IMG/VR virus record: IMGVR_UViG_3300048066_000291
Location: 1-64,000 of that record
Length of the DNA: 64,000 bases
Direction: 5' to 3' (one strand)
Origin: a virus
Made by a program: the position numbers and the translations under genes. The notes beneath the pieces are model-generated. The model was given only the letters and a program-made list of their open reading frames with translations. It was not told the DNA's origin and did no database searches. Shown in pieces: positions 7,241 through 53,100 of this stretch; the stretch's first letter is position 1; every line of letters starts with the position of its first letter.

Positions 7241-7347
7241 ATTAATCCTTTCCTCCTCATTTCTTCTGGGCTCATAGGTTGTTTAATTGGAGCTTTCATT
7301 GCTTTATCAAGTCTTTCTTGTTGCACTTGATCAAGTGCCCCACGCAT
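7237..7347 (-). CDS. tiny protein (36 aa) between queE and the next gene
   Basis: The peptide starts MRGALDQVQQERLDKAMKAP and ends MRRKGLI. Its ATG at 7347 lies inside the last codons of queE (17-base overlap) and its stop overlaps the next start as ATGA. The same frame stays open further upstream, but that extension lies wholly within queE and reads like a shadow, so the short form is preferred. Function unknown. Confidence 0.55.
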   Translation of the reverse strand: MRGALDQVQQERLDKAMKAPIKQPMSPEEMRRKGLI

Positions 7348-8287
7348 TTCCGAATAAGGATATGTGGAGTCTGGGTGTGAATCGCCACCCTTTTTCCATA
7401 CACGCTTCCGCCACGTCCTTAACGTTGAGGGCGTATTCTTCACTGCGTCCGCCCAACGGCATAAGGTATACCGGACATTGTACTCCGGCACTCTGATACT
7501 CATTAACAGCTTTTTCAACTTCTGCAAAGTCATCTTGAGTAGCGACAACAAACTTGAGATACATGTCACTACCGTTAACACTGTTATACTGACTAGCAAC
7601 AACAGGGAGTATAGCAGTATCCCAAGGTTCTCCGCTAACGCTAAGTTTTGGGGAACAACTCCAAGTAACTTCAAATCTGTCTTGAGATGTGAGATAATCG
7701 TAGAAATCGCTGTGTAAAGGTTGCGTAGTGTTTGTTTCAAATGTAACATTTTTTAAATCCTGCATACGTGGGTGTTCAAATAGCTCAATGTAAAGCCGTT
7801 GCCACGCTAACAACGGTTCACCGCCAGTCATGATTAAATGGACATCCTGTCCATTATCCTGCACCCACTTACCGTTAGGAGTGAGTGAAAGCAAATGTTC
7901 AACTACTTCGTCTACAGTTGCTTGTCTATTAAAGTGTTTAAACTCGGGATAGATACTTGCATATGTATCACATCCTGTGTGTATAATAGGTAAGTCTTCA
8001 AACTTTTCAGTTGTTTCATGTACCTTTGCATCAATCAAATCTTTTACTTCTTGATTGTATCGTTGTCCTTCTGCATGTAACTCTGTGCGATTCTTTTTAG
8101 TATCTACACCAAAGTTCATACAACGGAAGTTGCAACCAAAAGTGCGTAGGAATACACTGGGTACTCCTACAAACTTGCCTTCGCCTTGTACACTATAAAA
8201 TGCTTCTGAATATCTTAGTTTCATAGCTGGCTTTCTGTTAACTGCTTCATAAGAAGGATAACCTTTTTCAAATACTGGCGCTTCCAT
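7331..8287 (-). CDS. queE: 7-carboxy-7-deazaguanine synthase QueE (radical SAM)
   Basis: 318 residues. The QueE signature FYSVQGEGKFVGVPSVFLR is at 30-48. Radical-SAM cluster cysteines appear as GCNFRC (C52, C56), but the third cysteine is C106 in a GCDTYASIYPEF context. The canonical CX3CX2C is therefore split by an insert, giving CX3CX49C. A MTGGEPLL SAM-binding motif follows. QueE converts 6-carboxytetrahydropterin to 7-carboxy-7-deazaguanine (CDG). The start overlaps the folE stop (TAATG), placing both in one operon. With FolE, a QueD-like protein and DpdA nearby, the role is probably DNA base modification. The insert may be structural or may change reductant docking. Confidence 0.88.
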   Translation of the reverse strand: MEAPVFEKGYPSYEAVNRKPAMKLRYSEAFYSVQGEGKFVGVPSVFLRTFGCNFRCMNFGVDTKKNRTELHAEGQRYNQEVKDLIDAKVHETTEKFEDLPIIHTGCDTYASIYPEFKHFNRQATVDEVVEHLLSLTPNGKWVQDNGQDVHLIMTGGEPLLAWQRLYIELFEHPRMQDLKNVTFETNTTQPLHSDFYDYLTSQDRFEVTWSCSPKLSVSGEPWDTAILPVVASQYNSVNGSDMYLKFVVATQDDFAEVEKAVNEYQSAGVQCPVYLMPLGGRSEEYALNVKDVAEACMEKGWRFTPRLHISLFGNAWGT

Positions 8288-8970
8288 TAGCAGCTAAACT
8301 CCTGTTGTAGTTTAATGTTGTCAAAGAACTCTTTCTTTGTGCCTGCATCATCTTTAAACGCACCACGTAGCACTGTAGTTTGTGTTAAACTACTGTGTGC
8401 CATAATGCCACGGTTCTCACAACAGCCGTGTGTTGCTTGAATATACACACCTAAGTGTTCTGCACCTGTTGCACTTGCAATCTCACGTGCAATATCATTT
8501 GCAAGTTCTTCTTGTAGTGTTCCGCGCCTAGCACACCACTGTGCAATACGTGTGTATTTGCTAAGTCCAATCAGTTTGTCTGCGGCAATAATACCAATGT
8601 ATGCAATACCAGCTACTGGCTGATGGTGATGTGAACACATGCTTTTTAGTTCACTACGTACTACTAGCATACCTTCATAACGATCATCCGAATCATTAGG
8701 AAATGCTGTTGCACTAGGCATAGGATCATAACGACCTGCCATAATCTCATTAAAGTACATTTTTGCAAGACGTTTTGCTGTACCTTTAGAGTTAGGATCT
8801 GTATGTCGATCAATTAATAGTGCATCAAGCACACCTTCAAATGCTGTAGTTGCATCTTCAATAAGTTCTTCCTTATCGCCGTTCTGCAATACTTGTGAAA
8901 TATTGTCGCCGGCCCAATGACGAATGCCTAGATCTTCTAGACGGGCTTTTAATTGTTCTGCTTTGCTCAT
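8287..8970 (-). CDS. folE: GTP cyclohydrolase I
   Basis: 227 residues. It carries the FolE core SMCSHHHQPVAGIAYIGI, with zinc ligands C112, H115 and probably C183 of HGCCENRG. It converts GTP to dihydroneopterin triphosphate, the first step of both folate and 7-deazaguanine synthesis. Because it is fused translationally (TAATG) to queE, the deazaguanine role is likelier here than folate supply, although the phage also encodes DHFR and thymidylate synthase. A perfect sigma70-type promoter and CGGAGA ribosome site precede it. Confidence 0.92.
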   Translation of the reverse strand: MSKAEQLKARLEDLGIRHWAGDNISQVLQNGDKEELIEDATTAFEGVLDALLIDRHTDPNSKGTAKRLAKMYFNEIMAGRYDPMPSATAFPNDSDDRYEGMLVVRSELKSMCSHHHQPVAGIAYIGIIAADKLIGLSKYTRIAQWCARRGTLQEELANDIAREIASATGAEHLGVYIQATHGCCENRGIMAHSSLTQTTVLRGAFKDDAGTKKEFFDNIKLQQEFSC

Positions 8971-9025
8971 TTTATTCTCCGATGTTTAGGCAGTGGATTG
9001 CCGATATAATGTATAACATAATCTT

Positions 9026-9054
9026 ATTATACATGTTATTTAGGTTTTTGTCAA
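9026..9054 (-). promoter_or_regulatory. sigma70-type promoter, perfect consensus
   Basis: TTGACA (9054-9049), 17 bp spacer, TATAAT (9031-9026), driving folE-queE. Confidence 0.85.
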
Positions 9055-9068
9055 GTATAAAAAATATT

Positions 9069-9485
9069 TTAACCTGCTGATTTAACTGCAAGATTGTCCC
9101 AGTCAATATCATTAGATTTGTAATTACCTTTTTCAGGTATAACATTTCTAACTCCTCCTGTAGGATTTTCTGTGTCTTTATCACGCCTAAATATTAAATG
9201 TACATGTGGATACATGCACGTTTGACCTGCACTTGTTCCTACGTTCATTCCTACGTTAAAACCAGTGATGTTAGTCTTTTGAGAAACTACGTTTGCTTCG
9301 CCTGTTGCAATTGCAAATTGGAAACACTTTAACATAGATTCTAAATTATTTTCTTTTGGTACAACTAACAAATGTCCTTCTGTAACAGGATATTTGTCTT
9401 TGAATACAGTATATTCACGAGTATTAAGTTCAACATCTTGCCAAGGTGCTCTACCGTCTTTTTGCGCTTCGGCTAGTGTATCCAT
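9069..9485 (-). CDS. HIT-like (histidine triad) nucleotide-binding protein
   Basis: 138 residues. HIT fold features: FKDKYPVTEGHLLVVPK, then NVGMNVGTSAGQT followed by YPHVHLIFRR. The usual H-x-H-x-H triad reads Y-x-H-x-H, so the first histidine is replaced while the catalytic middle histidine is kept. HIT proteins hydrolyse or transfer nucleotides on phosphoester or phosphoramidate substrates. Its start overlaps the stop of the upstream coiled-coil gene (TAATG). The native substrate is unknown. Confidence 0.8.
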   Translation of the reverse strand: MDTLAEAQKDGRAPWQDVELNTREYTVFKDKYPVTEGHLLVVPKENNLESMLKCFQFAIATGEANVVSQKTNITGFNVGMNVGTSAGQTCMYPHVHLIFRRDKDTENPTGGVRNVIPEKGNYKSNDIDWDNLAVKSAG

Positions 9486-9676
9486 TATTCAACTCCTATG
9501 TCACGTTTAATTTTAGCAATTAATCGCTGTTGTCTATAAATGCTGTCTTTAGTGCCCTGCATATGTTGATATTTAATTTTTGCTGCTTGCATTTCTTTTA
9601 GTTCTTCTATTTTACGATTAACACTTTCTTCAAGTGCCTTAATATATCTTAATCGTTCTTCTCTATCGTGTGCCAT
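9485..9676 (-). CDS. small coiled-coil protein
   Basis: 63 residues, almost entirely charged helix (DREERLRYIKALEESVNRKI) with heptad-like spacing. Function unknown. It lies between the phosphoribosyltransferase and HIT genes with essentially no spacing. Confidence 0.65.
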   Translation of the reverse strand: MAHDREERLRYIKALEESVNRKIEELKEMQAAKIKYQHMQGTKDSIYRQQRLIAKIKRDIGVE

Positions 9677-10240
9677 TTAATATTCTCCTATATTTTCCCA
9701 AGGATACACTAACCAAACATCTTCTTCTGCTTTGTTAATTTCATGACAAGTATAACGCACATCGTCAAAATCACTTGCATCATTGTTTGTTAAGGTAGCA
9801 AAACGAACATTATTTTCCCACACAGTATCCCAAGCGTTCTCTTCGTTAGGTAAACAACTGCTCTGCCAGTCTTGTTTAATCCAGTTAAAAGTAGCGCCAG
9901 TATCGTTAATATCGTCTACAACCAAAATATTTTTACGCATAGCAGGATCCCAGCGACTTTTATACACTGGTCTATCTTCTTCAGCAACAATGCCAAATGC
10001 GTTATCCGCCATCCAACAGTTAGATTCGCTTTCTTCGCCTTCAGCACTGTCACGTAGACTAACTTTAAGTGCTTCGCAACGAATACCAGTCATGTTTGAA
10101 ATAATAGTAGCAGGAATATTTCCGCCTCTAGTAATACCTACAATATAATCAGGACGCCAGTTATCAATATACATCTGGTTTACAATTTGTACACACATCT
10201 TTTCTACGTCTTGCCAACTATAATAATGTTTCTTAATCAT
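9677..10240 (-). CDS. purine-type phosphoribosyltransferase
   Basis: 187 residues from ATG 10240, which has AAGGGG at good spacing; a GTG nine bases upstream is less likely. The type I PRTase fold shows VGITRGGNIPA and the PRPP-binding loop ILVVDDINDTGAT. The C-terminal WLVYPWE resembles Gpt-type purine PRTases. Such enzymes join a purine base to PRPP. In this deazaguanine-rich neighbourhood it might salvage guanine or xanthine, but nothing in the sequence shows the base specificity. Confidence 0.85.
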   Translation of the reverse strand: MIKKHYYSWQDVEKMCVQIVNQMYIDNWRPDYIVGITRGGNIPATIISNMTGIRCEALKVSLRDSAEGEESESNCWMADNAFGIVAEEDRPVYKSRWDPAMRKNILVVDDINDTGATFNWIKQDWQSSCLPNEENAWDTVWENNVRFATLTNNDASDFDDVRYTCHEINKAEEDVWLVYPWENIGEY

Positions 10241-10676
10241 GTTTAGCACCCCTTGCTAAGTAATCTTTATTGTGTATCCAAATACCATTCTTTAAAAAAC
10301 CCCAAGCGCCTGCTTTACGGCCCATAAAGAACAAACTCCAACATGGAATTTCATTGCCGTCTGCATCTTTGTCAAGTTCTAACCAATGTGTATCATTTGC
10401 TTTACGGTAACGGAAATGTCCAGGTCCTCTCCAAAAACGCCCGTCTGGAGTATTTTCCCAATAGCCGCCTTTGATAATAAATGTTGCATAACTCCAAGGA
10501 TGATCATGCAGTACAGGTTCATCACTTACAAGAACCTTGTGTAGTGTTATGTTAAAAGGAAAGTTCTTTCTGTCCTTTAGAAACACATAATATCGTACTA
10601 GGTAAGGCACATCGCTATCACGTTCTGTAATAACTCTACGCCTGCCAAGTTTGTCCATTAGTTTAGAAAAGATCAT
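10233..10676 (-). CDS. cupin-like protein
   Basis: 147 residues if started at ATG 10676 (MIFSKLMDKLGRRR). A longer frame to 10751 would overlap the upstream gene by 89 bases. The middle shows a cupin-type metal site with HDHPWSY and a downstream THWLEL histidine. This is a common fold for dioxygenases and isomerases but gives no substrate. It overlaps the PRTase start by 8 bases. Start choice is uncertain because no strong ribosome site is visible. Confidence 0.65.
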   Translation of the reverse strand: MIFSKLMDKLGRRRVITERDSDVPYLVRYYVFLKDRKNFPFNITLHKVLVSDEPVLHDHPWSYATFIIKGGYWENTPDGRFWRGPGHFRYRKANDTHWLELDKDADGNEIPCWSLFFMGRKAGAWGFLKNGIWIHNKDYLARGAKHD

Positions 10677-11028
10677 TATCTTGATGGTTCCCTTTATAAT
10701 CTTGTTCAACCATTTTGTAAACAGTTTTAAAATTTTCCAATGCTTTTTCAAGTGCAGGATAATGTTGACACATATCTTTCACTACACTCATAGCAGGCAA
10801 ATGATCTATCCATTCAGTACCAAAGCCTGTACTAACAGTTGATCCTGATATAATATTATCAATGTTAATAGTATCATCTAAAGTAAAAGTATAATCACTA
10901 TCTGTAATTGTTAAGCTATCAGTAGATATTGAGGTAGTTCCTGCCATGTTATCGTCAAATGTAATAGTATACGGATCACTAGATCCTGTAAGTATTACAA
11001 TGTCATTATCGTCTTTGGATTGTGTCAT
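10663..11028 (-). CDS. conserved phage protein with Thr/Asp-rich beta N-terminus
   Basis: 121 residues. The N-terminal 65 residues are Thr/Ser/Asp-rich, strand-forming and repetitive (TITFDDN, TSISTDSLTI). The C-terminal 50 residues form a helical domain (EWIDHLPAMSVVKDMCQHYP) that resembles small proteins of T4-like marine phages. It overlaps the glycosyltransferase gene by 23 bases. Function unknown. Confidence 0.7.
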   Translation of the reverse strand: MTQSKDDNDIVILTGSSDPYTITFDDNMAGTTSISTDSLTITDSDYTFTLDDTINIDNIISGSTVSTGFGTEWIDHLPAMSVVKDMCQHYPALEKALENFKTVYKMVEQDYKGNHQDNDLF

Positions 11029-12094
11029 ACAATGCTGCTCCGCTAAAAAACTCTTTGTTTAACTTTGTACGTTGTTTGTCTAAACTTACAAGATAGTCAT
11101 CATAGTTTTCCATATAATCACATATCTTTGCAACAACTTCGCCTCTGTGTTTTACATATGCAGAGTAGTCTTCAGTCCACTTGCTAGGATATGCAAACTC
11201 AGGTAATGCCATTTCACTGTAGCTGAGTCTGTCTGGCACCATAGGAATAGCATCTACTAATGCACCTTCGTACCAACTAATGCCAAGTGTTTCTTGCAAG
11301 TTAGCACTAAACACAATCTTTGCTTCACCTAACAAATTATGGTATTCATTTTTAGTAAGTTCACGTTCTTGACATACTACAAATTCATATTGCGGCAAAC
11401 GTGTTTGAAGATCTCTAAAGATATCAACTTGTTTCTCAGGAGCAACACGATGTGGGAACAAGATCAAGTCTCGCTTTTCCATACCCTTGTAACCATCTAA
11501 ACTACCTTTTAGATACTCCATAGGCCAACCTACACGATGTACTTTATCATCAAAATCTAATGCTTCTTGTGTTGTCCAGTGATCATTATTTTCTTTTTCT
11601 AAAATAGTGTCTGTAAACATATCAATGTGAAAGTCTGTAGCATAATAGTTATCATCAAAGCATTCATACATGCTACGTTCAGCATGTCTTACCCAAGGTT
11701 TATCGCCTATTAGCCTACCAAGGAAATCATGAGGATCATAACTACCAGCATGCCAAAGACCGCCGACTCTAATGTCGACCCCAAGGAGTTCAGCCATGTA
11801 ACGCAACTGGATAACAGTTGGGTTCCACGCATCCGTATATAAGAAATAATCTCCATCATTAACTTCTCCCTTACAGAACATTTCACCAATTTGTTCTAAT
11901 TGTTTTGATTTATAAACGTTAGTGCCACCAAAGTTTAAGAAAGCCCCAGGCGTTGTAGCCTGAGGTGTTTCTCCGCCGCTGATAACAACAACATTTTCAT
12001 TTGTAGCACGTTGAAGTTGCCGAGGCAAATAATCCTTCCACTGTTTAGTGTATCGAGTATCTACAGCTTCAATGTCTACAATATGAATTGTCAT
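11006..12094 (-). CDS. GT-B-type glycosyltransferase
   Basis: 362 residues. The C-terminal half resembles family 4 glycosyltransferases, with FPHRVAPEKQVDIFRDL, then FVVCQERELTKNEYHNLL and an acceptor/donor motif ANLQETLGISWYEGALVDAIP. Such enzymes transfer a sugar from a nucleotide donor. T4-like marine phages often carry a similar gene. The target could be a virion protein, host surface or modified base. A TAATG-type junction couples it to the small upstream gene. Confidence 0.75.
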   Translation of the reverse strand: MTIHIVDIEAVDTRYTKQWKDYLPRQLQRATNENVVVISGGETPQATTPGAFLNFGGTNVYKSKQLEQIGEMFCKGEVNDGDYFLYTDAWNPTVIQLRYMAELLGVDIRVGGLWHAGSYDPHDFLGRLIGDKPWVRHAERSMYECFDDNYYATDFHIDMFTDTILEKENNDHWTTQEALDFDDKVHRVGWPMEYLKGSLDGYKGMEKRDLILFPHRVAPEKQVDIFRDLQTRLPQYEFVVCQERELTKNEYHNLLGEAKIVFSANLQETLGISWYEGALVDAIPMVPDRLSYSEMALPEFAYPSKWTEDYSAYVKHRGEVVAKICDYMENYDDYLVSLDKQRTKLNKEFFSGAALYDTIQRR

Positions 12095-12291
12095 TAGGTT
12101 CTCCTGTTGCGATTTTGATTACGTGCTTTAGCTCGCAACCAACCTTGGTACTTTTGATAGGCAATCCAGTTAGGATCATCTTTTTTATAAAGTGCTGCCT
12201 CGTTGAACACTTTCCCTTCGGAACGGCAATAGTTACGATATGTATCCAAGTCATTAAAGATCTTGTTTACAGTTGGGTTTTTAATAGTCAT
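12094..12291 (-). CDS. small conserved T4-like phage protein
   Basis: 65 residues starting MTIKNPTVNKIFNDLDTYRN and ending in a basic tail (NQNRNRRT). The pattern is known to me from T4-like cyanophages without a function. It sits directly upstream of the glycosyltransferase. Confidence 0.7.
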   Translation of the reverse strand: MTIKNPTVNKIFNDLDTYRNYCRSEGKVFNEAALYKKDDPNWIAYQKYQGWLRAKARNQNRNRRT

Positions 12292-12308
12292 TGGATTGAT
12301 TCCTCTTA

Positions 12309-12707
12309 TTATGACTTAGGGTAAAAAATAGAACAGCCGTTTTCATTGTCTTCAGCGACACTAATCTCTACAAACCGGCCTGGATATTTGCGAGATATTT
12401 CTAAGTACAAGTCATCTGCAATCATTTCACATGACTTATGATTTAGTTGTAGTACTGCTGTAGAACTATCTACTTCAGCGTACAACCGTTCCATCCAGCG
12501 TTTAAACTGGATAAACTCAATATCGCGATCGTTATGAAACACTTCGATGCGAACTTTAAAGTGGAAAATATGACGATGTGGAATACCAAGGAATGATACA
12601 TCATCCCAATCGCCAGTTGCTAGTTTAGGATCAGTATCTGCGCCAGGGTACATATGTACACCTTCTTTATTAAAAGTTACCCAAATACTGCGTTCTGCGT
12701 TATCCAT
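12309..12707 (-). CDS. QueD-like T-fold protein lacking the catalytic Cys (possible CDG decarboxylase)
   Basis: 132 residues from ATG 12707, chosen because AGAGG precedes it and because the promoter at 12768-12796 would start RNA near 12761, making the longer 150-residue reading leaderless. It resembles 6-carboxytetrahydropterin synthase: zinc histidines in EGVHMYPG and HRHIFHF, then SCEMIAD and VAEDNENGC near the C-terminus with the conserved Glu. Between the first His and HRH there is no cysteine, and the Asp-His dyad of QueD is not evident. It may therefore be a repurposed paralogue. The published predicted CDG decarboxylase DpdL is, as I recall, QueD-related. A divergent true QueD is the alternative. 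Confidence 0.72.
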   Translation of the reverse strand: MDNAERSIWVTFNKEGVHMYPGADTDPKLATGDWDDVSFLGIPHRHIFHFKVRIEVFHNDRDIEFIQFKRWMERLYAEVDSSTAVLQLNHKSCEMIADDLYLEISRKYPGRFVEISVAEDNENGCSIFYPKS

Positions 12708-12767
12708 TCTATCCTCTTCTCTCATTCTGCGTTGCATGTATGCGTAATATCTTTCTTGCATATTATT

Positions 12768-12796
12768 AGTATACTTTCATTATTAAAAGTTGTCAA
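12768..12796 (-). promoter_or_regulatory. sigma70-type promoter
   Basis: TTGACA (12796-12791), 17 bp spacer, TATACT (12773-12768). The expected start of transcription is near 12761, which argues that the QueD-like protein begins at the internal ATG 12707. Confidence 0.8.
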
Positions 12797-12801
12797 CATT
12801 T

Positions 12802-13347
12802 TTATGGCAGGAAATTAAAACTAATAGTACACTTTGTACCAGTAGTTGGTCTTGTAGAAGCATGTAAAAATTTCCCGTCGAATAACACTAGTCTTCCTTT
12901 TTTAGGAGTAACTGTTGCTTGAACTTCAGTCCACATACTACCTGGGTCATCATACATTCTATCGTATATAATAGTATCACCGTCACTATCACATACATAA
13001 TAAATTGCAGTCATATGAGGTCTTGTCATATCTACATGTTCGTCGTCTTGTAAAACTTTTAGATTAGTTTGTGGTAATAGTGTGGCTTTTATTTGTAATA
13101 CTTTTGAAGGCTCAACAAAGAATTGTTGATTAGTTGTTAAAACATCAAAGTACGGATTTGGTATTTCCCAACCTTCTTGATAGATGGTATTAACGAATCC
13201 TGGTCTTTCAACATAGTCAATACTATTTGTATCTGGATTATGATTCATATCAGACTGATAGAACCAAGAAAATGCTTTACGCAACAATTTATCAAAGAGT
13301 TGATTCTGTAATTCTAAGGGAATACAATTGTCGTAAACTTGTACCAT
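12802..13347 (-). CDS. 2OG-Fe(II) oxygenase
   Basis: 181 residues. The metal site HVD in DEHVDMTRPHMTAIYYV and the distal H of GKFLHASTRPT, followed by an Arg/Lys-containing TKCTISFNF strand, are typical of 2OG-dependent dioxygenases. It lies between the QueD-like gene and the DpdA cluster and overlaps its upstream neighbour (TAATG). Its placement makes it a candidate for further oxidation of the deazaguanine base, but that is inference. T4-like phages carry many oxygenases of unknown target. Confidence 0.78.
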   Translation of the reverse strand: MVQVYDNCIPLELQNQLFDKLLRKAFSWFYQSDMNHNPDTNSIDYVERPGFVNTIYQEGWEIPNPYFDVLTTNQQFFVEPSKVLQIKATLLPQTNLKVLQDDEHVDMTRPHMTAIYYVCDSDGDTIIYDRMYDDPGSMWTEVQATVTPKKGRLVLFDGKFLHASTRPTTGTKCTISFNFLP

Positions 13348-13865
13348 TATAGTACCTTATCTTTTCCGTATTTAGACCAATCTGTAAATTTATCACGATC
13401 CATTAGATCATGTAAGCTATGACACCAAACGCCTGGATTACTTTCTTTAAAGCCTTTGTCATCAATCTTAACCATTGTGTTATAGTTCCACTGTGCAACA
13501 TAAGGTACTACAACACGTATTTGTGGAATGAAGTTATCATACTCAGTTAGTCCACCGTCTAAGAACCATTCCATATTAATTGTACTTGGAATGTCTAAAC
13601 TACATAGAATACCTTCTTTGACAAGCGGAAGTACCATTGCTTCCCATTCTTCAAAGTCTTCTGCTAGTTCAGGATTATAACTGTGGTTAGCACCAAAGAA
13701 CACATGTTCTACCTGTTCGTTTGCAATGTGCTGTTTAATTGTTATATAAGAATGTATGCCTGTAACAAATAATGTTTTCATTCCGTAAGCAGGAGTCTTT
13801 TCAACTTCTGTACCTACAAAGAACTCTACGTTATCTTTTACGCCTGTGTCATAATCACGTTTCAT
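13347..13865 (-). CDS. conserved phage protein of unknown function in the DNA-modification region
   Basis: 172 residues starting MKRDYDTGVKDNVEFFVGTE. Alternating beta and alpha segments (TLFVTGIHSY, HVFFGANHSY, GILCSLDIPS, IRVVVPYV) suggest a Rossmann- or TIM-like fold. I recognise the N-terminal FFVGTEVEKTPAYGMKTLFV style from marine T4-like phages but no function. Its position between dpdA and the QueD-like gene makes a pathway role possible. Confidence 0.75.
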   Translation of the reverse strand: MKRDYDTGVKDNVEFFVGTEVEKTPAYGMKTLFVTGIHSYITIKQHIANEQVEHVFFGANHSYNPELAEDFEEWEAMVLPLVKEGILCSLDIPSTINMEWFLDGGLTEYDNFIPQIRVVVPYVAQWNYNTMVKIDDKGFKESNPGVWCHSLHDLMDRDKFTDWSKYGKDKVL

Positions 13866-13989
13866 CTTTATCTTCTTTTATCCAAATATTAACATGAGCA
13901 ACTGCACTGTCTGAACGAGTAACTACATAATCTAAACCCGCCTCTTTTAAAGCAGTCCTAAGTTTTTCAAGATTTTTATTAGGTTTCAT
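13855..13989 (-). CDS. small protein (44 aa) in the dpdA operon
   Basis: ATG 13989 overlaps the upstream stop as ATGA, and the TGA at 13857-13855 overlaps the next gene by 11 bases. The peptide begins MKPNKNLEKLRTALKEAGLD and looks like a short alpha/beta unit (GLDYVVTRSDSAVAHVNIWI). Function unknown. The tight coupling and plausible composition support it as a gene. Confidence 0.6.
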   Translation of the reverse strand: MKPNKNLEKLRTALKEAGLDYVVTRSDSAVAHVNIWIKEDKDET

Positions 13990-14195
13990 TCTAAACCTTT
14001 TTGTACTAAGTAAGAATTAATTCTGTGCATTTCATCTTTTAGATAGAGCTTCATAGTTTTCATACGCCTAACTTCATCTGTTACTGTTATATTATTATAC
14101 TTTACTTCGAGCTCTGTGTCAAGTTCTTTATGCTTACGTTCTAATTCTGCATAATGAGCTCTAAGTTTATCTTCAGTAGATTCATAATTGCTCAT
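13986..14195 (-). CDS. DUF465/YdcH-like small coiled-coil protein
   Basis: 69 residues. Helical hairpin with HYAELERKHKELDTELE and a RMKTMKLYLKDEMHRI segment, matching the KLxLKDEI pattern of the YdcH/DUF465 family. Function of the family is unclear. It overlaps the dpdA start region by 14 bases. A perfect sigma70-type promoter lies inside its coding sequence. Confidence 0.7.
   Translation of the reverse strand: MSNYESTEDKLRAHYAELERKHKELDTELEVKYNNITVTDEVRRMKTMKLYLKDEMHRINSYLVQKGLE
14094..14122 (-). promoter_or_regulatory. intragenic sigma70-type promoter, perfect consensus
   Basis: TTGACA (14122-14117), 17 bp spacer, TATAAT (14099-14094), lying within the DUF465-like gene. It would transcribe the 44-residue gene, the unknown 172-residue gene and the oxygenase. 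Confidence 0.65.
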
Positions 14196-15792
14196 CCTCT
14201 AGTTCCTCCAACTTAGTTTCATCTAATTCGTCAACAGATTCAACAGTTTCTTCTACATCAAATAGTGCATCAAAGAATGTAGAACTGTTTACAGTCTTTT
14301 TACCAATAGCACCCCTAGTACCTGGAATTGCCATCCAAAACTTTGAATACTCATCAATAACTGCTAACGACTCTTCTTTTGTTGTCTTTGAAAATATTTC
14401 TTCTACAACATCTCTAAATGTAATTCTGTCAAACTTTTCTTGCACTAACATATTTGGAATTACACCAGCGTCATACTGTCTATTAGCTTCTTGTACAGCG
14501 TTTACGTGACTCCATACGTTGTGACCCATTTGTATAGCATAACTAAAGCTATCCCAGCTTGTAGAGTCTTTCTTGCGTACAATTTGATTACCGCTTGCAT
14601 CTAATACAGGATTATCGTTTTTATCTAGTTCAACTTCCCCTGCACTTACTTTAGGTACACCAATCTTATTGCGATCACCTTTTTTGTATGTACAGATATC
14701 GTTTACTAACAAACCGTCAGTAAGTGGACTATCTTCGAAGTTAGGAAAGATACCATCTTGTGTAGTTGCATCTTTAAAAGAACGTGTGTCACTTGCATAC
14801 TTTAGTTCGTCTACACTAGGAACCATTCTATATGTCCACTTGCCTCTATCAGGCGTTTCATTTTGAATGTATACTTGTCCATTAGCGGTTGCTAAGAAAG
14901 GCGAAGCACAATCAAATGTAAGCATCATAGTAGGGTTATAGTACTTGCGTATAGCACGTTGTAAGTCTGTTAACAAACAAGCCCACTCTAATTTACTAGT
15001 ACCTAAGAAGTGCATTACATCGTGTACACCGCTTTGTAGTAGTCCATCGTAGTGTAGTGTAACAATGCGTTTAAGAACCAAATGCACATCGCACATGTTC
15101 TGACCACCCATAGACCATCCATTAAAATGTGTGTCAGGATACTTAACTGGATCGCAGTAGTCTTTCATCTGCTCGTACCAGTCATCTGCGTCTGCGTGAT
15201 TCTCACCTTGTAGAACGTTTAGGAACTTACAAGCACCTGTACGATGTTTCATAAAGTAATCATTATTGATGCGTGTTGCTTTAACTGCTTCTGCGTATGT
15301 TGAAATGCCTGTTGCTTTTGCACCAGCTGGCGAACGTGCTACCCAGGCCGGAATATCAAGTATCATTCCGTAGTCCATGTAAGCGTCCATCCAACGCAAT
15401 ACACCATCTCTTTTCTTTTGTGCTTTAGGACAATTAGGATCTTTCCAATCGCCTTCCCAAACACCTTTACCAATTTGGAAGCCACCTGAGTCACCTAGTA
15501 ACCAAGTGTTTTCTCTATCTCTGTTACGCACCATATCTTCTTTAGGTACATGTTTAGTTGTATCTAAGTCAGCATGTCCTGCAGAATAGAGCGTCCATTT
15601 ATATTGAAACGCTCCTTCATTTTTATTGAGATAGTTTAATGTTTCAACACCGTTAGCAAAGTTACTAGGAATACGAGCTTTGTCGACATATTCATCATAC
15701 CGCTGTTTACCTACATAAGTTGCATAGAAGCCACTTAGCGCAGGAAGAAAGTGTGCATAATCATTTTGTGCGGCAGTTAAATCCTTATTCAT
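14182..15792 (-). CDS. dpdA: DpdA-type DNA guanine transglycosylase
   Basis: 536 residues from ATG 15792; a TTG one codon upstream is unlikely. Two hallmarks of the tRNA-guanine transglycosylase superfamily are intact: GDSGGFQ with catalytic Asp at 101, and the nucleophile motif FDCASPFLATANG with Asp at 294. A NGWSMGGQN substrate-loop motif lies between them. The C-terminal zinc site of tRNA enzymes (CxCxxC) is not visible, and the protein is longer than bacterial Tgt (about 375). These traits, plus folE, queE and a QueD-like gene, point to DpdA, which exchanges guanine in phage DNA for a 7-deazaguanine. I cannot assign the DpdA subfamily. The gene follows the sliding clamp gene directly. 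Confidence 0.85.
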   Translation of the reverse strand: MNKDLTAAQNDYAHFLPALSGFYATYVGKQRYDEYVDKARIPSNFANGVETLNYLNKNEGAFQYKWTLYSAGHADLDTTKHVPKEDMVRNRDRENTWLLGDSGGFQIGKGVWEGDWKDPNCPKAQKKRDGVLRWMDAYMDYGMILDIPAWVARSPAGAKATGISTYAEAVKATRINNDYFMKHRTGACKFLNVLQGENHADADDWYEQMKDYCDPVKYPDTHFNGWSMGGQNMCDVHLVLKRIVTLHYDGLLQSGVHDVMHFLGTSKLEWACLLTDLQRAIRKYYNPTMMLTFDCASPFLATANGQVYIQNETPDRGKWTYRMVPSVDELKYASDTRSFKDATTQDGIFPNFEDSPLTDGLLVNDICTYKKGDRNKIGVPKVSAGEVELDKNDNPVLDASGNQIVRKKDSTSWDSFSYAIQMGHNVWSHVNAVQEANRQYDAGVIPNMLVQEKFDRITFRDVVEEIFSKTTKEESLAVIDEYSKFWMAIPGTRGAIGKKTVNSSTFFDALFDVEETVESVDELDETKLEELEDEQL

Positions 15793-15795
15793 CAA

Positions 15796-16518
15796 TTACT
15801 TGCTCTGCGCTGGAAGAATGTAATCGTATGTTGCAATGCCACTGTCTACTGTAATTTTCATTGCACCTTGATCACTAATACTCATAGTTAAGTCGCCGTC
15901 TAAACTCAAAATGCTTTGTACTTGTGCTACTGGCCAACTCCATGTGTGCTGTAATGCACCTTCTACGCTGTGTTGGAATACAAACTCGCCAGCATGTGTA
16001 CTTGCATCACCAAAGCTAAAGATTAAGTTACTGTCTTTAGTTGTTACATTAAATGTAGGCTCTTCAGAATGTGCCGCACTCATTAATTTCATACGTGCAA
16101 TTGCTGCCTGTGTTGGAGCAATTTCTACATTCCAAGCCGCACCTTTGAATTTAACAGTTTTAAGTTTTTCTTCAATGATTGCTTTATTCATAAAGCGATA
16201 ATCATTTTCAAAGTCACCTGCTGCATTTTCAAAGTGAATGTGTGTTGGAATAGTTTCACCGTTACGATCTGCTTTTACAACATCAATTTTTGCATTTTCT
16301 TTGTATTCAGGATTTTTTAAGTGTAGTGCTAACTTATCTAAGTTAGGCATACCAAATGTACCGTCAGCTACACTGTGTTGCGAAGTTGCGTTAAGAATCA
16401 CACTTCGATCTTCTGCCATCGAGTCGATGACAGTGTCACTACCACCTGTTACTTTAACTAAGCTCAAGAAGCCTAGTGCGTGAGTATGTGCTACTACGTC
16501 TTGTAAGATATCTTTCAT
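15796..16518 (-). CDS. 45: DNA polymerase sliding clamp gp45
   Basis: 240 residues with the T4 gp45-type layout of repeated clamp domains (GFLSLVKVTGG, VILNATSQHSVADGTFGMPN, then SLDGDLTMSISDQGAMKITV). The trimeric clamp tethers gp43 and, in T4, activates late transcription with gp33/gp55. Late-type GATAAATA boxes in this window fit that role. Its ATG overlaps the epimerase stop (ATGA), and a perfect promoter sits in the end of that gene, so it can be made independently. Confidence 0.88.
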   Translation of the reverse strand: MKDILQDVVAHTHALGFLSLVKVTGGSDTVIDSMAEDRSVILNATSQHSVADGTFGMPNLDKLALHLKNPEYKENAKIDVVKADRNGETIPTHIHFENAAGDFENDYRFMNKAIIEEKLKTVKFKGAAWNVEIAPTQAAIARMKLMSAAHSEEPTFNVTTKDSNLIFSFGDASTHAGEFVFQHSVEGALQHTWSWPVAQVQSILSLDGDLTMSISDQGAMKITVDSGIATYDYILPAQSK

Positions 16519-17285
16519 GTTATTGTTTCTCCATCGAATAAGTTAATTATATTGCCTTTATTGCCATTTGTCAAGAACTTTTCTACCGAGTATTTAGGTT
16601 TAAAGCCTAGAGCTGACATTTTTTCTGTATTGGCGCAAGTAAATTCACGCTCTCCCGGGGTATTTAGACGAACTGGTAAGTTTGGTGCTAAGTCTCGGAT
16701 CCTAACAGGATTTCCCGTACCGATATCAATTGTACCTTTTATATATGTACTATTGATTAATAATTCAACAGCATCACATACATCTTGTACATGTATAAAA
16801 TCTCTGTAATGCCTTGTTACATAGTCTAATGTGCCGTTACGTAACTTGTTGAAAAACATATTTTCTCTTGGACAAATGTCTGAGTAAACTGTATGAAAAC
16901 GCATACCTAATGTATCTGGATAACGCTCTGCAAGTTCTTCTAATACATATTTTGATGCCGCATAAGGATTTAAGTCAGGCTCATATGCACTAGAAGAACT
17001 TGCGTACAGTATACGTGTATCTGCGTATGCTTCAAATAAACGCTTACTTGCTTCTACATTGTTAAACCAATATCCTGCAGGATCAGTTAAACTTTCACGT
17101 ACACCACTTTTACCTGCAAGGTGTATAACAAGATCAATATTCTTTGGCCACTGTGCAATGTTAAGTAAATCTTGTTCTTTACCGTTCTTTGAATCAATAC
17201 CAATTACTTCGTACTTCTTATTCAACAATCGATTGCCGAGTGCAGTACCAATAAATCCTAAATGTCCTGTAAGTAAAATACGCAT
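16515..17285 (-). CDS. NAD-dependent sugar-nucleotide epimerase/dehydratase (extended SDR)
   Basis: 256 residues from ATG 17285, where MRILLTGHLGFIGTAL starts immediately with the GxxGxxG dinucleotide site (7-13). The upstream frame extension to 17330 overlaps the next gene. The catalytic YxxxK is YAASK. Extended SDRs of this type epimerise, dehydrate or reduce nucleotide sugars. It overlaps the phosphomannomutase stop (TAATG), forming a sugar-nucleotide operon with that gene and the cytidylyltransferase. The sugar made cannot be read from sequence. Confidence 0.85.
   Translation of the reverse strand: MRILLTGHLGFIGTALGNRLLNKKYEVIGIDSKNGKEQDLLNIAQWPKNIDLVIHLAGKSGVRESLTDPAGYWFNNVEASKRLFEAYADTRILYASSSSAYEPDLNPYAASKYVLEELAERYPDTLGMRFHTVYSDICPRENMFFNKLRNGTLDYVTRHYRDFIHVQDVCDAVELLINSTYIKGTIDIGTGNPVRIRDLAPNLPVRLNTPGEREFTCANTEKMSALGFKPKYSVEKFLTNGNKGNIINLFDGETIT
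16546..16574 (-). promoter_or_regulatory. intragenic sigma70-type promoter for the clamp gene, perfect consensus
   Basis: TTGACA (16574-16569), 17 bp spacer, TATAAT (16551-16546), inside the 3' end of the epimerase gene and 28 bases upstream of the clamp ATG, which has GGAG before it. Confidence 0.8.
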
Positions 17286-18007
17286 TAGTTTGCAATCCTT
17301 TGCTCTTGGAACCACGTTAAGTATTCCCAAGTTTGCTTCCAGCTTGTTACAGCCCTTGGATGGCTGACTAGTTTTGAAAGTGAATAATCATTACCGCCTT
17401 CAAACATAGCATCGCCAAAGAAATAGATTCTATCATCTTTGTTAAAGTCTGTAATAATCTGACTTTTGTCTGCACCTTTTGGCGCAATGTCTATTCCTGT
17501 TTCTCCACCAATTGTTGCTTGTAAGTCTGGAAACATTGTGTTAAATGCAGTTGCAATTGTTTCACGTTCGTTTTCAAATGTATCGTATGCTACATACTTC
17601 GCACGTTGTTCTATAGTTGCATTGCGTCCTACAACACTAAAGTTAACCATACCTGGCCGTGCTTCAATGTGATTGCCTGTACGTATAGTAAATTCGCTTT
17701 CATACTCGCAATTAATTAAAAATGCTTTTGCTAAATCTGGAAGTGACCATTCACTTGTTTTTATATTTTGGCCTTTTTCATATATATCGTTACCTGAACA
17801 ATTATATAGTCTCTTTACAGCCATTACTATGTCATTGCCTACTTGTTCTACTGTTTTTGCATAATCGCTGCCTGTAACAAGATAGACGTTATTTGATTTA
17901 CAAAATGTTAGAAAAAACTCTTGGAATCTTTTATCTATTTTGCTTCTGCTAGGGGTTAGTGTACCGTCGACGTCAAATACAAATCTATTAATTGCTTCTT
18001 TTTTCAT
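17285..18007 (-). CDS. HAD-superfamily phosphomannomutase (eukaryotic PMM type)
   Basis: 240 residues. The HAD motif I FDVDGTLTPSR gives D12/D14. A RPGMVNFSVVGRNA segment matches the RNGMLNvSPIGR signature of eukaryotic-type phosphomannomutase, followed by GGETGIDIAPKGADKSQII and a FGDAMFEGGNDY metal motif. PMM interconverts mannose-6-phosphate and mannose-1-phosphate, feeding GDP-mannose-type sugars. Neighbouring epimerase and nucleotidyltransferase genes support sugar-nucleotide synthesis. A general HAD phosphatase is the alternative. Confidence 0.8.
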   Translation of the reverse strand: MKKEAINRFVFDVDGTLTPSRSKIDKRFQEFFLTFCKSNNVYLVTGSDYAKTVEQVGNDIVMAVKRLYNCSGNDIYEKGQNIKTSEWSLPDLAKAFLINCEYESEFTIRTGNHIEARPGMVNFSVVGRNATIEQRAKYVAYDTFENERETIATAFNTMFPDLQATIGGETGIDIAPKGADKSQIITDFNKDDRIYFFGDAMFEGGNDYSLSKLVSHPRAVTSWKQTWEYLTWFQEQRIAN

Positions 18008-18420
18008 GTGCGTTCTCTTTCTGCTATACGATTACGCAAATCACTGGACGAGAAGCGGTGATCTCTTTTGTTGAAGTGTAGCTGGATACCCCGCTTCTTG
18101 CAAATATCCTTGCCCGTAAAATCCTTTTCACGATACTCTTCACCTAATATTCTAACATCTATTTGATACATTGTCAAGATATCTTCTAGGTCTGCTTCAG
18201 TACCGTATGGAATAATTTCATCTACATATGCTATTGCTTTGAGTTGTGTGTAACGCTCAACAACAGTTTGTATAGGAGCGTTCTTTTCTGCTCTATCTAC
18301 ACTTGGATCAACTTGTAATCCACAGATAAGATAATCACATTGTTCTTTTGCTTCACGCAACATTTGTACATGTCCTGCGTGAAGTAAATCAAATGTACTA
18401 CAAGTGAACCCTACTCGCAT
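18004..18420 (-). CDS. glycerol-3-phosphate cytidylyltransferase-like nucleotidyltransferase
   Basis: 138 residues. The nucleotidyltransferase motif HAGH appears in CSTFDLLHAGHVQMLREAK, and the distal HRFSSSDLR replaces the usual ISTTxI signature. Cytidylyltransferases of this size activate glycerol-, ribitol- or sugar-phosphates as CDP derivatives. It overlaps the PMM start by four bases (ATGA). Substrate is unproven. Confidence 0.8.
   Translation of the reverse strand: MRVGFTCSTFDLLHAGHVQMLREAKEQCDYLICGLQVDPSVDRAEKNAPIQTVVERYTQLKAIAYVDEIIPYGTEADLEDILTMYQIDVRILGEEYREKDFTGKDICKKRGIQLHFNKRDHRFSSSDLRNRIAERERT
18149..18177 (-). promoter_or_regulatory. probable intragenic sigma70-type promoter
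   Basis: TTGACA (18177-18172), 17 bp spacer, TAGAAT (18154-18149), inside the cytidylyltransferase gene and about 140 bases upstream of the PMM gene. The -10 has one mismatch. Confidence 0.5.
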
Positions 18421-50174: not shown

Positions 50175-53100
50175 TTATACTACGTTAATTGTGCCAACCA
50201 TTGAACCGTGGTATTGACAGATGTAATAGAATGTGCCAGTACCGCCAACTATCCATCTAACTGTACCGTTTTGTGTACCGCCATTAGTTACGCCAGTTGC
50301 TTGACTTCCTGTGCCTGTAACAGCAGCAGTCTTAATCCAAAACGGGTGTCCACTAGCATTAACATTAAAGTCAACAATATCGCCATTATTGAAGTTTAAT
50401 CCTGGGTCAGTTCCATTTACTACACCACTTCTATCAGTTCCACTTAGTGTATAATCACTTGAATTACTTGCTGTAACAGTAATTGTATAATCTGCTGCAG
50501 GTGTTGTGCTAGTATCATTAATAGTAACAGTTGTTGTAGCTTCACCATTGTCTAATGCTAATTGTAATGTTTCTGAACCTTCTGTTGTTTGGTCAGCTGT
50601 AATTGGCAATACAAGTGACGCAGTGTCACTATTAACTGTAAAGTTACCTGTTAATAAATTATCATCAATATCAGCTGGAAGTACGCCAGTAATTGTATAT
50701 GGTACAGTTGTTGAATCAGATACGTTTGTAGTTGTTAGTGTAATAGTTAACGTCTCTCCTTCATTAACAGTGTTTGCACTATTTGCCAATGCATATGTAG
50801 CAGCAGGCGCAATACTTGTATCGTTAACAATAATATCAATACTATCTTGTCCGTTATCTAATGCAAGCGTCATAGTTTCTGTGCCTTCAGTTGTAACGTC
50901 TTCAGCAAATGTAAATACCAATGTATCTGTATTTGACGTAATAGTAAAGTTGCCTGTAATACTTCCTGCTGTTAGATCGTTTGAGTCAATACCAGTAATT
51001 GTATATGGTACAGTTGTTGCATCATCTGTTGCTGTAGTAGTTAACGTAATTGAAACTGTTCCACCTTCGTTAACTGCACTAACATCACCCGACAGTGCAA
51101 AAGTTGGAGCTGCTGCTGTGCTTGTATCATTAATAGTAATGTCAATGTTATCTTGTCCATTGTTTAGTGCAATGTTTAATGTTTCTGGACCTTCTGTAGT
51201 TACATCGTTTGCTAGTGTAAGTACAAGGTTTGCAGTATTACTATTAATTGTAAAGTTACCAGTTAAACTCTCTCCACCAATATCAGCAGATGTAACACCA
51301 GTAATAGTGTAAGCTGCTGTTGTAGCATCGTCAACGTTTGTAGTTGTTAGTGTAATAGTTACACTGTCGCCTTCGTCTACTGCTGTTGCGCTTGATGATA
51401 ATGTATACGATACTGCTCCTGCTACACTTGTATCATTAATATTTACATTAACTGAGCTTTCACCGTTGTCTAGGGCAATAGTCATTGTCTCTAACCCTTC
51501 AGTTGCAGCATCTGATGTAATTGGAAGTATTAAGGTTGCAGTATTGCTAGTAACTGTAAAGTTGCCTGTTAGTGCATTGCCGCCTATGTCAGCTGTTGTA
51601 ATTCCTGTGCCACTAATTGTATAAGGTACTGTTGTATCATCAGGAACGTTTACAGTTGTTAGTGTAACAGTAAGATCTGAACCTTCGTTAATACTTGCAA
51701 CACCGCCTAAGTCAAGTGTATAACTTTGTACTGGAGTTGTGCTTGTATCGCCAATTGTTACAACTACACTTTCACTAATATTAGTTAGTGACAATGTAAA
51801 TGTTTCTACACCTTCTGTAGTTAAATCTTCTGTAACAGTAAATGTTTTAGTTGCTGTGTTATTACTAATAGTTAATAGTCCTGATAACTGCTCGTCACCA
51901 ATGTCAGCACTTGATACGCCGCTAATTGTATATGGTATAGCTGTACCAGTTGAAACATTTGTTGTTGTTAGAGTTACTGTGAACGATTCGCCTTCATCAA
52001 CTCCATTATTGTCAACTGTTAATGCATATGTTGCTGGAACAAGTTCTGTTGTTTCAGTTGTTTGACCAATAGTCATTTGCGTTGCACTATTAAATTTATT
52101 ATATGCAAATCTATTGTTACCGCCTAAAATGCTTCTTGAATCATCATAGTCATTGTCAAGGCTTGTTGTGTAAATTTTAGAAGCGCCTGCATTTGTATTA
52201 ATAAAGGACAAACCTTGTGCAGGTGTTGCGCCTGGATTAATTTGTGTATACAGAGCTAATGCACCTGCAACATTTGGCGCTGCCATTGACGTACCACTAA
52301 TATTTGTTATAAGGAAAGAACTGTTACTTGGATACGGTCCATCACCGGCACCCCATCTATTAATATTACTTGTGGTACTCATAATGTTTGTACCAGGAGC
52401 GTATACAGTAACACCTGGACCTGTTTCAGAACTACTTGCTTTTTGCTCTAATCCGTCTGGATGAATATCAGCATCGATGTTACCAACAATATGTGCTTGT
52501 GTTGAAAACGGTGAGCCGCCTCTATTATAATAGTATTCTGTAGTACCAGTTGATGTTTTAGTAAAATAGTTATCGTAATCAAGACCTCCGTCAACATCAA
52601 TTTTTTGTCTTGAATTACCAGCTGCAATAACAACGTGTACTCCGGCATCAATTAATTCTTGCACATCAACGTCAACAGAAGCAACTCTAGATACATACCT
52701 ATAACCAATTCCTGTAAATGAACCTACCATTCCGTAGTCTGGACGTCTTGCTGCTCCAGCCCAAGGTGTGCCTCGATACGAGCCACCTGAGATACCAGTA
52801 AAGTAACCACCGTATCCCCAACTCATATTAACAATAGTAGGACGCTTCTTGCCTGTTGCTGGATCAACGGGCTTATTATTGTGCCAACCCTTGATTACAT
52901 CAAAGCAGTCAGTAACACTAATCCCTGTACCGGAGTCGCCTGAACCTTCTAAGCCGCTTACTTTTACCGCATAAATTTTAGCACCTTTAGCCCAGCCATA
53001 TGTTAATCCTGCTGCAATACCTGCAACGTGTGTTCCGTGACCGTCATAATCTCTATAGTGATCGATATTTTGTGATCCTGATAATCCGCTTGCTGCATAC

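Follow-up and report, generated by a model that had tools for sequence, protein, structure and literature searches.

The 7-deazaguanines known from DNA carry small groups at C7. Phage systems that lack QueC and have dCDG or dDG, with DpdA3 and DpdL, were reportedly described by Cui et al. in 2023, and we take phiST to belong to the Cellulophaga phages in which these bases were studied. PreQ0/archaeosine-type phage systems with DpdA2 are exemplified by Vibrio phage nt-1, and phages without DpdA have been proposed to raise queuosine (Q) (PMC6884629). The locus studied here lies in a window of 64,000 nucleotides belonging to an 83,141-base virus record, in which QueE, FolE and a DpdA-type protein with a tRNA-guanine transglycosylase (TGT) fold are present and QueC is absent. 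Like the DpdA2 system of nt-1, it combines FolE, QueD and QueE with a predicted TGT-family DNA transglycosylase, itself a profile relative of DpdA2; unlike nt-1, where QueC lies beside DpdA2, it carries no QueC but a divergent QueD paralogue (QD2) and a GT4-type glycosyltransferase (GT). It shares the loss of QueC with the dCDG/dDG systems and phiST carries a QD2 relative (31%), but in place of the long DpdA that phage has a short protein showing TGT-like motifs, and it has no GT. Sequence, fold and context all speak for the original prediction, a DpdA-type set for 7-deazaguanine DNA modification that lacks QueC, and it is very likely that the module modifies DNA with a deazaguanine. With somewhat better than even confidence, we read the whole as a QueC-less deazaguanine DNA hypermodification module with QD2, DpdA and GT.

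The radical SAM protein QueE (7331..8287, minus strand; phrog_2076, E 3e-51), a predicted CDG synthase, and FolE, a GTP cyclohydrolase I (8287..8970, minus strand; PF01227, E 1.6e-37), were both correctly named in the original prediction. Five NCBIfam QueE models match the former, every one below its cut-off, and its three Fe-S cysteines (C52-x3-C56-x49-C106) are present in alignment A8, with the third (Cys106) displaced. Outside the window, a check of the record for other deazaguanine genes revealed a true QueD at 72627-73073 (PF01242, E 5.5e-15); the nine true QueDs of alignment A7 have C29, H33, D72, H73, E107 and E138 in common. Together with FolE and QueE, this QueD, encoded 72.6 kb into the record, would convert GTP to 7-carboxy-7-deazaguanine (CDG). 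The A7 profile found QueD in only 7/24 large IMG/VR relatives, so that the host or unseen parts of these genomes must sometimes supply it.

The lack of QueC that had been remarked on for the window extends to the full 83 kb of the record, possibly itself a fragment: PF06508 gave no match in it, and the control matched 12/14. QueC was also found in none of the ten cultured phage lineages bearing QD2, after the motifs of the X1 and D479 matches had been read. PF06508 scored 32.8 bits in D479, 34.7 in G020, 16.2 in X1 and 15.4 in each of G014 and G015, compared with 172 bits for the real QueC of Vibrio phage 2.275.O; the motif reading covered D479, G020 and X1, the matches in G014 and G015 being below the cut-off. 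D479 and G020 were rejected as QueC carriers, since in neither does the vicinity of the match hold an ORF of at least 120 aa that contains SGGxDS or the zinc motif, as was X1, where SGGVDS is present and the zinc motif absent. Because QueC is absent, CDG would not become preQ0 in the phage pathway, and the possible bases are dCDG, dDG or preQ0 made with the QueC of the host. Of these, preQ0 made by the host seems to us the least probable, since in two DpdA families, judging from few members, QD2 and GT appear to stand in for QueC: phage 2.275.O, which has a long DpdA, carries QueC and lacks both QD2 and GT, and nt-1, by tblastn, also lacks both, whereas the DpdA2 relatives ACP17, X1 and BUCT-ZZ01 have QD2 and GT but no QueC, one QueC-bearing member having been checked per DpdA family. 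Host supply alone would also not explain why all ten QD2-bearing cultured lineages are without a QueC of their own.

QD2 (12309..12761, minus strand) was first described as QueD-like; its relation to the QueD superfamily stands, on moderate profile similarity alone (hhalign 76.9% against QueD, 15 unrelated control profiles at most 1.6%), but it is not a QueD. In alignment A9 (20 sequences), H36, H62, H64, H76, R79, E82, S110, C111 and E112 are invariant; the His-x-His pair and Glu residues are kept, but there is no Cys ahead of His-x-His, where the QueD catalytic residue is lost, and the Asp-His pair conserved in true QueDs is absent. The best PDB profile match was PH0634 (2dj6), with an E of only 0.072, and searches for plasmid, NCBIfam or meaningful Pfam matches gave none. 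A PADLOC restriction enzyme model matched QD2 at E 0.0065, which we took as chance; the other nine of the ten proteins submitted to PADLOC were unmatched. QD2 probably acts in place of QueC. It would then use CDG as its substrate, and the activity that suggests itself most readily is decarboxylation to 7-deazaguanine, an assignment for which we put the chances a little short of even. The parts of the literature searched report no chemistry for any QD2-bearing phage, and the passages obtained from the Paride paper contain neither 'deazaguanine' nor 'QueE', their two mentions of 'modification' being on other matters.

If QD2 were the CDG decarboxylase known as DpdL, a candidate identity for it, the locus could be a plain dCDG/dDG system, with GT linked but separate, serving for example a host or virion glycan. 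The gene content of phiST (QD2, FolE, QueD and QueE, without QueC or GT) is consistent with this, as are the confinement of the upstream sugar genes to the window's clade and a QD2-QueD-FolE locus in a Streptomyces genome that includes no member of these DpdA and GT families and resembles a free-base pathway; the QueE profile gave no match in that genome, in a search without a positive control. We nevertheless regard a plain dCDG/dDG system as rather unlikely, since GT adjoins or lies near QD2 in phages with two DpdA families and in bacterial DpdA blocks.

The long TGT-family protein announced in the original prediction is encoded at 14182..15795 on the minus strand, from a TTG start (the 536-aa version starts at the ATG at 15792). 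It has no match in Pfam, PHROG or NCBIfam, and PF01702 matches nowhere in the record. Its AlphaFold2 model (pLDDT 85.4) points to a TGT fold: the best Foldseek matches are tRNA-guanine transglycosylases (E 1e-6), the solved DpdA 7ui4 is also among the matches (E 4.4e-5), and VIA gave a Z of 18.8 over 304 residues against the TGT fold. The motifs that provide the catalytic aspartates and bind the base in TGTs are retained as DSGGFQ (D102), LDIP (D147), LQG (Q196) and FDCAS (D295), and these four residues align motif for motif with a Magnetospirillum tRNA TGT; the three aspartates are invariant in alignment A1 and Q196 is conserved in at least 90%. As had been noticed, no tRNA-type zinc site is visible, with no TGT-type Cys cluster and C368 as the sole conserved Cys of the region; in two bacterial DpdA relatives (L244 and L248), cysteines do cluster close to where the TGT zinc site would be. 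By profile comparison the long DpdA is a distant relative of DpdA2 (93.3%, E 2.8e-7; 11 controls at most 0.6%), the one described subfamily to which it was compared. A tblastn search with the long DpdA did not pick up phage nt-1, and neither a single-protein scan with the PA5oct DpdA nor a PDB profile search with DpdA gave matches.

We infer that the long DpdA acts on DNA and not tRNA. The set might instead raise queuosine precursors, with the TGT-fold protein working on host tRNA; tRNA TGTs are indeed its best structural matches, and raising Q is the role suggested for phages without DpdA (see above). Such a tRNA-directed pathway is very unlikely, however: without QueC there would be no phage-made preQ0, the protein lacks the TGT Cys cluster and is a profile relative of DpdA2, and both of the block-bearing Magnetospirillum-type genomes that were searched already own a separate tRNA TGT, as well as QueC. 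Furthermore, dpdA has a replication context, being close to the DNA polymerase gene and adjoining that of the sliding clamp (15796..16518, minus strand), which is directly upstream in transcription order and lies upstream of DpdA in 73/74 placements; the clamp has no Pfam match but its profile matches a Phosso gene annotated as sliding clamp.

The DNA-directed DpdA would exchange guanine for the QD2-derived base, and the guanine thus displaced is probably salvaged by a phosphoribosyltransferase (PRTase; 9677..10249, minus strand; PF00156, E 4.2e-8). This protein resembles xanthine/guanine PRTases (NCBIfam NF006613, E 9.8e-10, below cut-off), which would fit salvage better than the new base chemistry originally proposed for it. 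It is present in 22/22 placements and in the PA5oct and BUCT-ZZ01 loci, and a HIT-domain protein (9069..9485, minus strand; PF01230, E 2.2e-8) occurs downstream of DpdA in 19/22. Counts of this kind would also suit a nucleotide-level route in which the PRTase makes a deazaguanine nucleotide for incorporation by the phage polymerase, DpdA being secondary, but this is highly improbable given the TGT catalytic motifs kept in DpdA, the likeness of the PRTase to salvage enzymes and the fact that no PRTase came to light at the loci of ACP17, X1 and Phosso. A cupin-like protein (10233..10751, minus strand; phrog_4786, E 3e-36, named 'cysteine dioxygenase' in PHROG) is found in 17/22 placements.

The order clamp>DpdA>X172>QD2>GT>...>FolE>QueE is repeated in IMG/VR relatives, which places the gene set beyond chance. 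Among placements from close relatives, with contigs shared between sets, linkage from DpdA reached 42/42 for QD2 and 29/29 for GT, GT adjoined QD2 in 57/57 testable cases, and the links from QD2 to DpdA and to FolE held in 59/60 and 35/38. X172 (13347..13865, minus strand) is likewise a conserved member (51/51), with a relative in ACP17 between the FolE and DpdA2 genes of that phage. Of the interleaved genes earlier suggested to extend the chemistry, GT is a member of the module; the 2OG-Fe(II) oxygenase-like protein (12802..13347, minus strand; PF13640, E 2.5e-5, below cut-off) is an irregular companion found in 3/29 placements.

GT (11006..12094, minus strand) is predicted from its AlphaFold2 model (pLDDT 83.3) to have a GT-B fold of the GT4 type over the whole chain, with a best Foldseek E of 6.2e-10 and 7.0e-10 for BshA, and Z values in VIA of 24.2 and 23.8, the latter for BshA over 302 residues. 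GT4 enzymes are recognised by an E-x7-E motif and a donor-phosphate Arg/Lys; GT has QETLGISWYE (E268, E276) and HRVAPEKQ, and R216, E220 and E276 are invariant in alignments A3 and A5. It has the conserved Arg/Glu and Glu motif residues in common with BshA, from which it differs in being only 11% identical and in belonging to a DNA-base module as opposed to a pathway for thiols or glycans. The same slot is filled by either of two GT types that are about 21% alike, and in type b an Asp replaces the first Glu of the motif. Relatives occur in PA5oct, Phosso, ACP17, X1 and BUCT-ZZ01 and in at least 374 IMG/VR stretches; a single-protein scan with the ACP17 GT returned one contig, identical over GT. 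Five different groups of cultured phages have GT close to QD2, but GT is missing from 5/10 QD2-bearing cultured lineages, so QD2 can act without it.

Beyond CDG, we infer every step, including the substrates of QD2, DpdA and GT. GT probably adds a sugar, and there is a nearly even chance that it acts on deazaguanine, either on the base or on a precursor of it. A 7-deazaguanine product would offer a sugar no evident oxygen or nitrogen at C7 for attachment, and decarboxylation and glycosylation are then hard to reconcile, except through a C-C bond or a different activity of QD2. We tentatively propose, with less than even confidence, a sugar-bearing 7-deazaguanine in DNA, for which QD2 prepares the base, DpdA inserts it and the sugar comes from an exchangeable GT4 enzyme; the GT-QD2-DpdA unit would also mark bacterial DNA in Magnetospirillum-type genomes. 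In tRNA, queuosine occurs in glycosylated forms (manQ/galQ), and the proposed product would likewise be a nucleic acid base of the 7-deazaguanine kind with a sugar, but in DNA, the likeness being one of analogy; searches of the open literature available to us turned up no report of such a glycosylated base in phage DNA. If this proposal is true, a QueD paralogue and a GT at the place of QueC would show how deazaguanine DNA bases grow larger and more varied, with a QD2 and GT unit that occurs with two DpdA families and also in bacterial genomes. DNA with such a base might withstand restriction enzymes and further nucleases.

In the window's clade, three genes upstream of the clamp may help to make the sugar donor: those for an NAD-dependent epimerase/GDP-mannose dehydratase-like protein (16515..17330; PF01370, E 5.6e-26; 141/165 IMG/VR loci), a phosphomannomutase-like HAD protein (17285..18007; PF03332, E 2.7e-28; 122/156) and a cytidylyltransferase-like protein, the candidate nucleotidyltransferase (18004..18420; PF01467, E 1.2e-15; 140/146), all on the minus strand. 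None was found in any named phage stretch fetched, GT-bearing ones included. In the Magnetospirillum-type loci, the GT-QD2-DpdA blocks are followed by QueD in 5/6; a CoiA-like nuclease nearby was dismissed as a restriction partner, being present in two loci only (L245 and L246). In phiST, D479 and Ahp1, the short protein encoded near QD2 is not claimed as a TGT, its TGT-like motifs being visible by eye only and its hhalign values low: 5.5% for the long DpdA, 0.6% for DpdA2 and 0.3% for a TGT. It also occurs away from QD2, in Bakedbeans and RHph_I1_18.

Our analysis showed that the 7-deazaguanine gene set in the window is real, with QueE (7331-8287), FolE (8287-8970) and a DpdA-type protein of predicted TGT fold all present. 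These genes belong to a row on the minus strand that is headed by a sliding clamp (15796-16518) and continues, in order of transcription, with the TGT-superfamily protein directly downstream (long DpdA, 14182-15795), X172 (13347-13865), which has no known family, a 2OG-Fe(II) oxygenase-like protein (12802-13347), the QueD-superfamily protein QD2 (12309-12761), a GT4-type glycosyltransferase (GT, 11006-12094), a 121-aa protein of no assigned family, a cupin, a phosphoribosyltransferase (PRTase) of the xanthine/guanine type, a HIT protein, FolE and QueE. Upstream of the clamp lie an epimerase/GDP-mannose dehydratase-like, a phosphomannomutase (PMM)-like and a cytidylyltransferase-like gene. The window forms part of a virus record of 83,141 bases, and a search of this whole record found no QueC, so that the absence noted in the original prediction extends to the rest of the record. 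It is established that FolE, QueD and QueE lead to 7-carboxy-7-deazaguanine (CDG), and QueC from there to preQ0 (PMC13329287). The DNA-modification reading of this locus is likely correct, and modification of DNA by 7-deazaguanines is of a known kind; the more interesting point, at which the original prediction only hinted, is the presence of QD2 and a glycosyltransferase in the place of QueC.

QD2 is probably the protein previously described as QueD-like. Its relation to QueD was supported by a profile match of 76.9%, with 15 unrelated control profiles at no more than 1.6%, and its best PDB profile match (E 0.072) was PH0634, a PTPS-type protein, in an alignment running through the His-x-His motif. 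Residues H36, H62, H64, H76, R79, E82, S110, C111 and E112 are invariant in 20 QD2 sequences, but the catalytic Cys and the Asp-His pair of QueD occur in none of the 20. Because these are absent, QD2 is, as judged by its sequence, a QueD paralogue with an altered active site and not a CPH4 synthase. The real QueD, with the Cys and Asp-His pair invariant in true QueDs, lies at 72627-73073 of the record.

Sequence libraries gave no match for the long DpdA, and PF01702 was silent in the record. An AlphaFold2 model built from 32 aligned sequences (pLDDT 85.4) gave 19 best Foldseek rows that were all TGT-family chains, the solved DpdA 7ui4 among them, and VIA matched it to the T. maritima TGT over 304 residues with a Z of 18.8, rows up to 1 Z apart from this value counting as tied. 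When profiles were aligned, its motifs paired with those of two Magnetospirillum tRNA TGTs as follows: DSGGFQ with DSGGFQ, LDIP with FDEC, LQG with VQG, GWSMGG with GYAIGG and FDCAS with FDCVM. The overall probability of this alignment was low (30.5%, E 5.3e-4), compared to no more than 0.3% for four control profiles set against TGT. The catalytic motifs of TGT are kept without its zinc-type Cys cluster, as had been predicted; C368 is the single conserved Cys of the cluster region in the window protein, and several cysteines lie in this region in the bacterial relatives at L244 and L248. The DpdA2 profile (nt-1, ACP17, X1 and BUCT-ZZ01) matched the long DpdA at 93.3% (E 2.8e-7), compared to no more than 0.6% for 11 control profiles and 0.1% and 1.3% for two more, and on these profiles the long DpdA is therefore a relative of DpdA2, albeit a distant one only.

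By tblastn, QD2 was found in 25 phage records, which we grouped by organism name into 10 lineages, with one record per lineage searched whole. No genuine QueC was found in any of these 10 records. QueE lies near QD2 in nine lineages (weakly in RHph_I1_18, at 34.3 bits) and elsewhere in the record in D479; FolE is nearby in nine, with none seen in the PA5oct stretch, and matches to PF01242 (QueD type) occur in 9/10. A TGT-family protein was confirmed in five lineages, of the long type in PA5oct and Phosso and of the DpdA2 type in ACP17, X1 and BUCT-ZZ01, and these same five are the ones with GT; in the remaining five, TGT-like motifs were recognized, by eye only, in a short protein. Among phages with the long DpdA, Vibrio phage 2.275.O carries QueC (172 bits) but lacks QD2 and GT, whereas PA5oct, Phosso and our record lack QueC and carry both of the other genes. 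In the DpdA2 family, QueC adjoins DpdA2 in nt-1, where tblastn found neither QD2 nor GT, whereas ACP17, X1 and BUCT-ZZ01 have both and lack QueC. Mainly because this exchange recurs in two DpdA families, in a comparison with one QueC-bearing member for each, we infer that QD2, together with GT, fills the post-QueE role held elsewhere by QueC. An acceptable QueC was likewise found in none of 24 large IMG/VR relatives: the one match above the cut-off (G020) was rejected on reading, as QueC motifs were absent, and two more relatives gave matches below the cut-off. In PA5oct (L001, 3608-8834), the DNA polymerase gene is split by a gene annotated as a Hef-like homing endonuclease, directly upstream of the clamp and DpdA.

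Three IMG/VR scans yielded at least 599 relatives of DpdA, at least 600 of QD2 and 374 of GT, and neighbours were placed in the closest 80 loci of each, in sets that share contigs and so are not independent. Counting only loci with sufficient flanking DNA, which left no testable locus for FolE or QueE around DpdA, the relatives of DpdA were accompanied by QD2 (42/42), GT (29/29) and PRTase (22/22), and by the 2OG oxygenase in only 3/29. GT was accompanied by QD2 (57/57) and FolE (48/48), and QD2 by GT (57/57), DpdA (59/60) and FolE (35/38). X172, present in 51/51 placements around DpdA and also in ACP17, may be an unrecognised enzyme of the module. Among the pooled loci of the three scans, the upstream sugar genes were found in 141/165 (epimerase), 122/156 (PMM) and 140/146 (cytidylyltransferase) cases, and in none of the named phage stretches compared.

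The AlphaFold2 model of GT (pLDDT 83.3, 27 aligned sequences) matched GT4 enzymes along its entire chain in Foldseek (E 6.2e-10 and 7.0e-10), and VIA gave a Z of 24.2 with sucrose-phosphate synthase and 23.8 with BshA; R216, E220 and E276 are invariant. Among 219 GT sequences, 213 are nearer the window type and six nearer a second type that shares 20-23% identity with the first. Five of the six accompany QD2 and a long DpdA (L168, L224, L239, L240 and L241) and one accompanies DpdA2 (BUCT-ZZ01). Such an exchange at a fixed place would be expected if GT determined the displayed sugar. A distant GT relative (26%) in the jumbo Xanthomonas phage PhiXhv-12 (L252, 4669-7903) adjoins genes annotated as a glucosamine-phosphate synthase type aminotransferase and a GlcNAc-malate deacetylase, and together these may make up a pathway for amino-sugar transfer.

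DpdA of phage CAjan is essential for insertion, and base exchange is discussed as its most likely mode of action (PMC6884629). In our scheme, CDG would be synthesized by FolE, QueD and QueE and converted by QD2. DpdA would put the product into DNA, and the PRTase would take up guanine. The simplest idea is that QD2 would act as a decarboxylase, like the CDG decarboxylase named DpdL, and the GT-less phiST is consistent with it. In the boldest reading, GT would glycosylate the base, perhaps at C7; if the QD2 product were plain 7-deazaguanine, this step would require a C-glycosidic bond, which would be unusual for GT4 enzymes. We know of no sugar-bearing 7-deazaguanine DNA base in the open literature, leaving aside an important 2023 study, and such a product would be new if true.

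When GTDB was scanned once with the QD2 profile, 14 loci were retrieved, of which 11 contain GT and 11 the long DpdA. Five of these are phage-like contigs with a clamp (L238-L242). A GT-QD2-DpdA block is found in four Magnetospirillum loci, one from Rhodospirillaceae (in which the contig breaks off within GT) and one from Verrucomicrobia, and QueD comes next in 5/6, the contig of the sixth (L248) ending 375 bases past DpdA. A histidine kinase lies upstream of the unit in all four Magnetospirillum loci (L244, L245, L246 and L247), and HEPN and CoiA-nuclease proteins are near it in two of the four. A Phage_integrase gene is close to the L245 block, and an ORF in L248 resembles one by eye. Both Magnetospirillum genomes searched have their own QueC and tRNA TGT. 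It is possible that the Magnetospirillum unit is a bacterial DNA-marking or defence island. In Streptomyces sp. NEAU-Y11 (L250, 9965-13611), genes for a deaminase and an FAD enzyme adjoin those of QD2, QueD and FolE in what looks like a deazapurine natural-product cluster; the locus contains no GT or DpdA of the families studied, as if QD2 acted here on a free base. An aminotransferase and a dTDP-sugar epimerase are close by.

In the window QueE, the third Fe-S Cys lies 49 residues past the CX3C pair (C52, C56, C106), and the same alignment has the compact CX3CX2C form in ACP17 and Phosso. Elsewhere, the record encodes a pair of proteins, each some 420 aa long, that carry haem-type CxxCH motifs and have no Pfam match (67455-69951), a UV-damage endonuclease UvdE (70775-71902; PF03851, E 1.5e-38) and, amid other long repetitive proteins, an 1140-aa protein with a subtilase domain (50175-53597; PF00082, E 2.3e-31).
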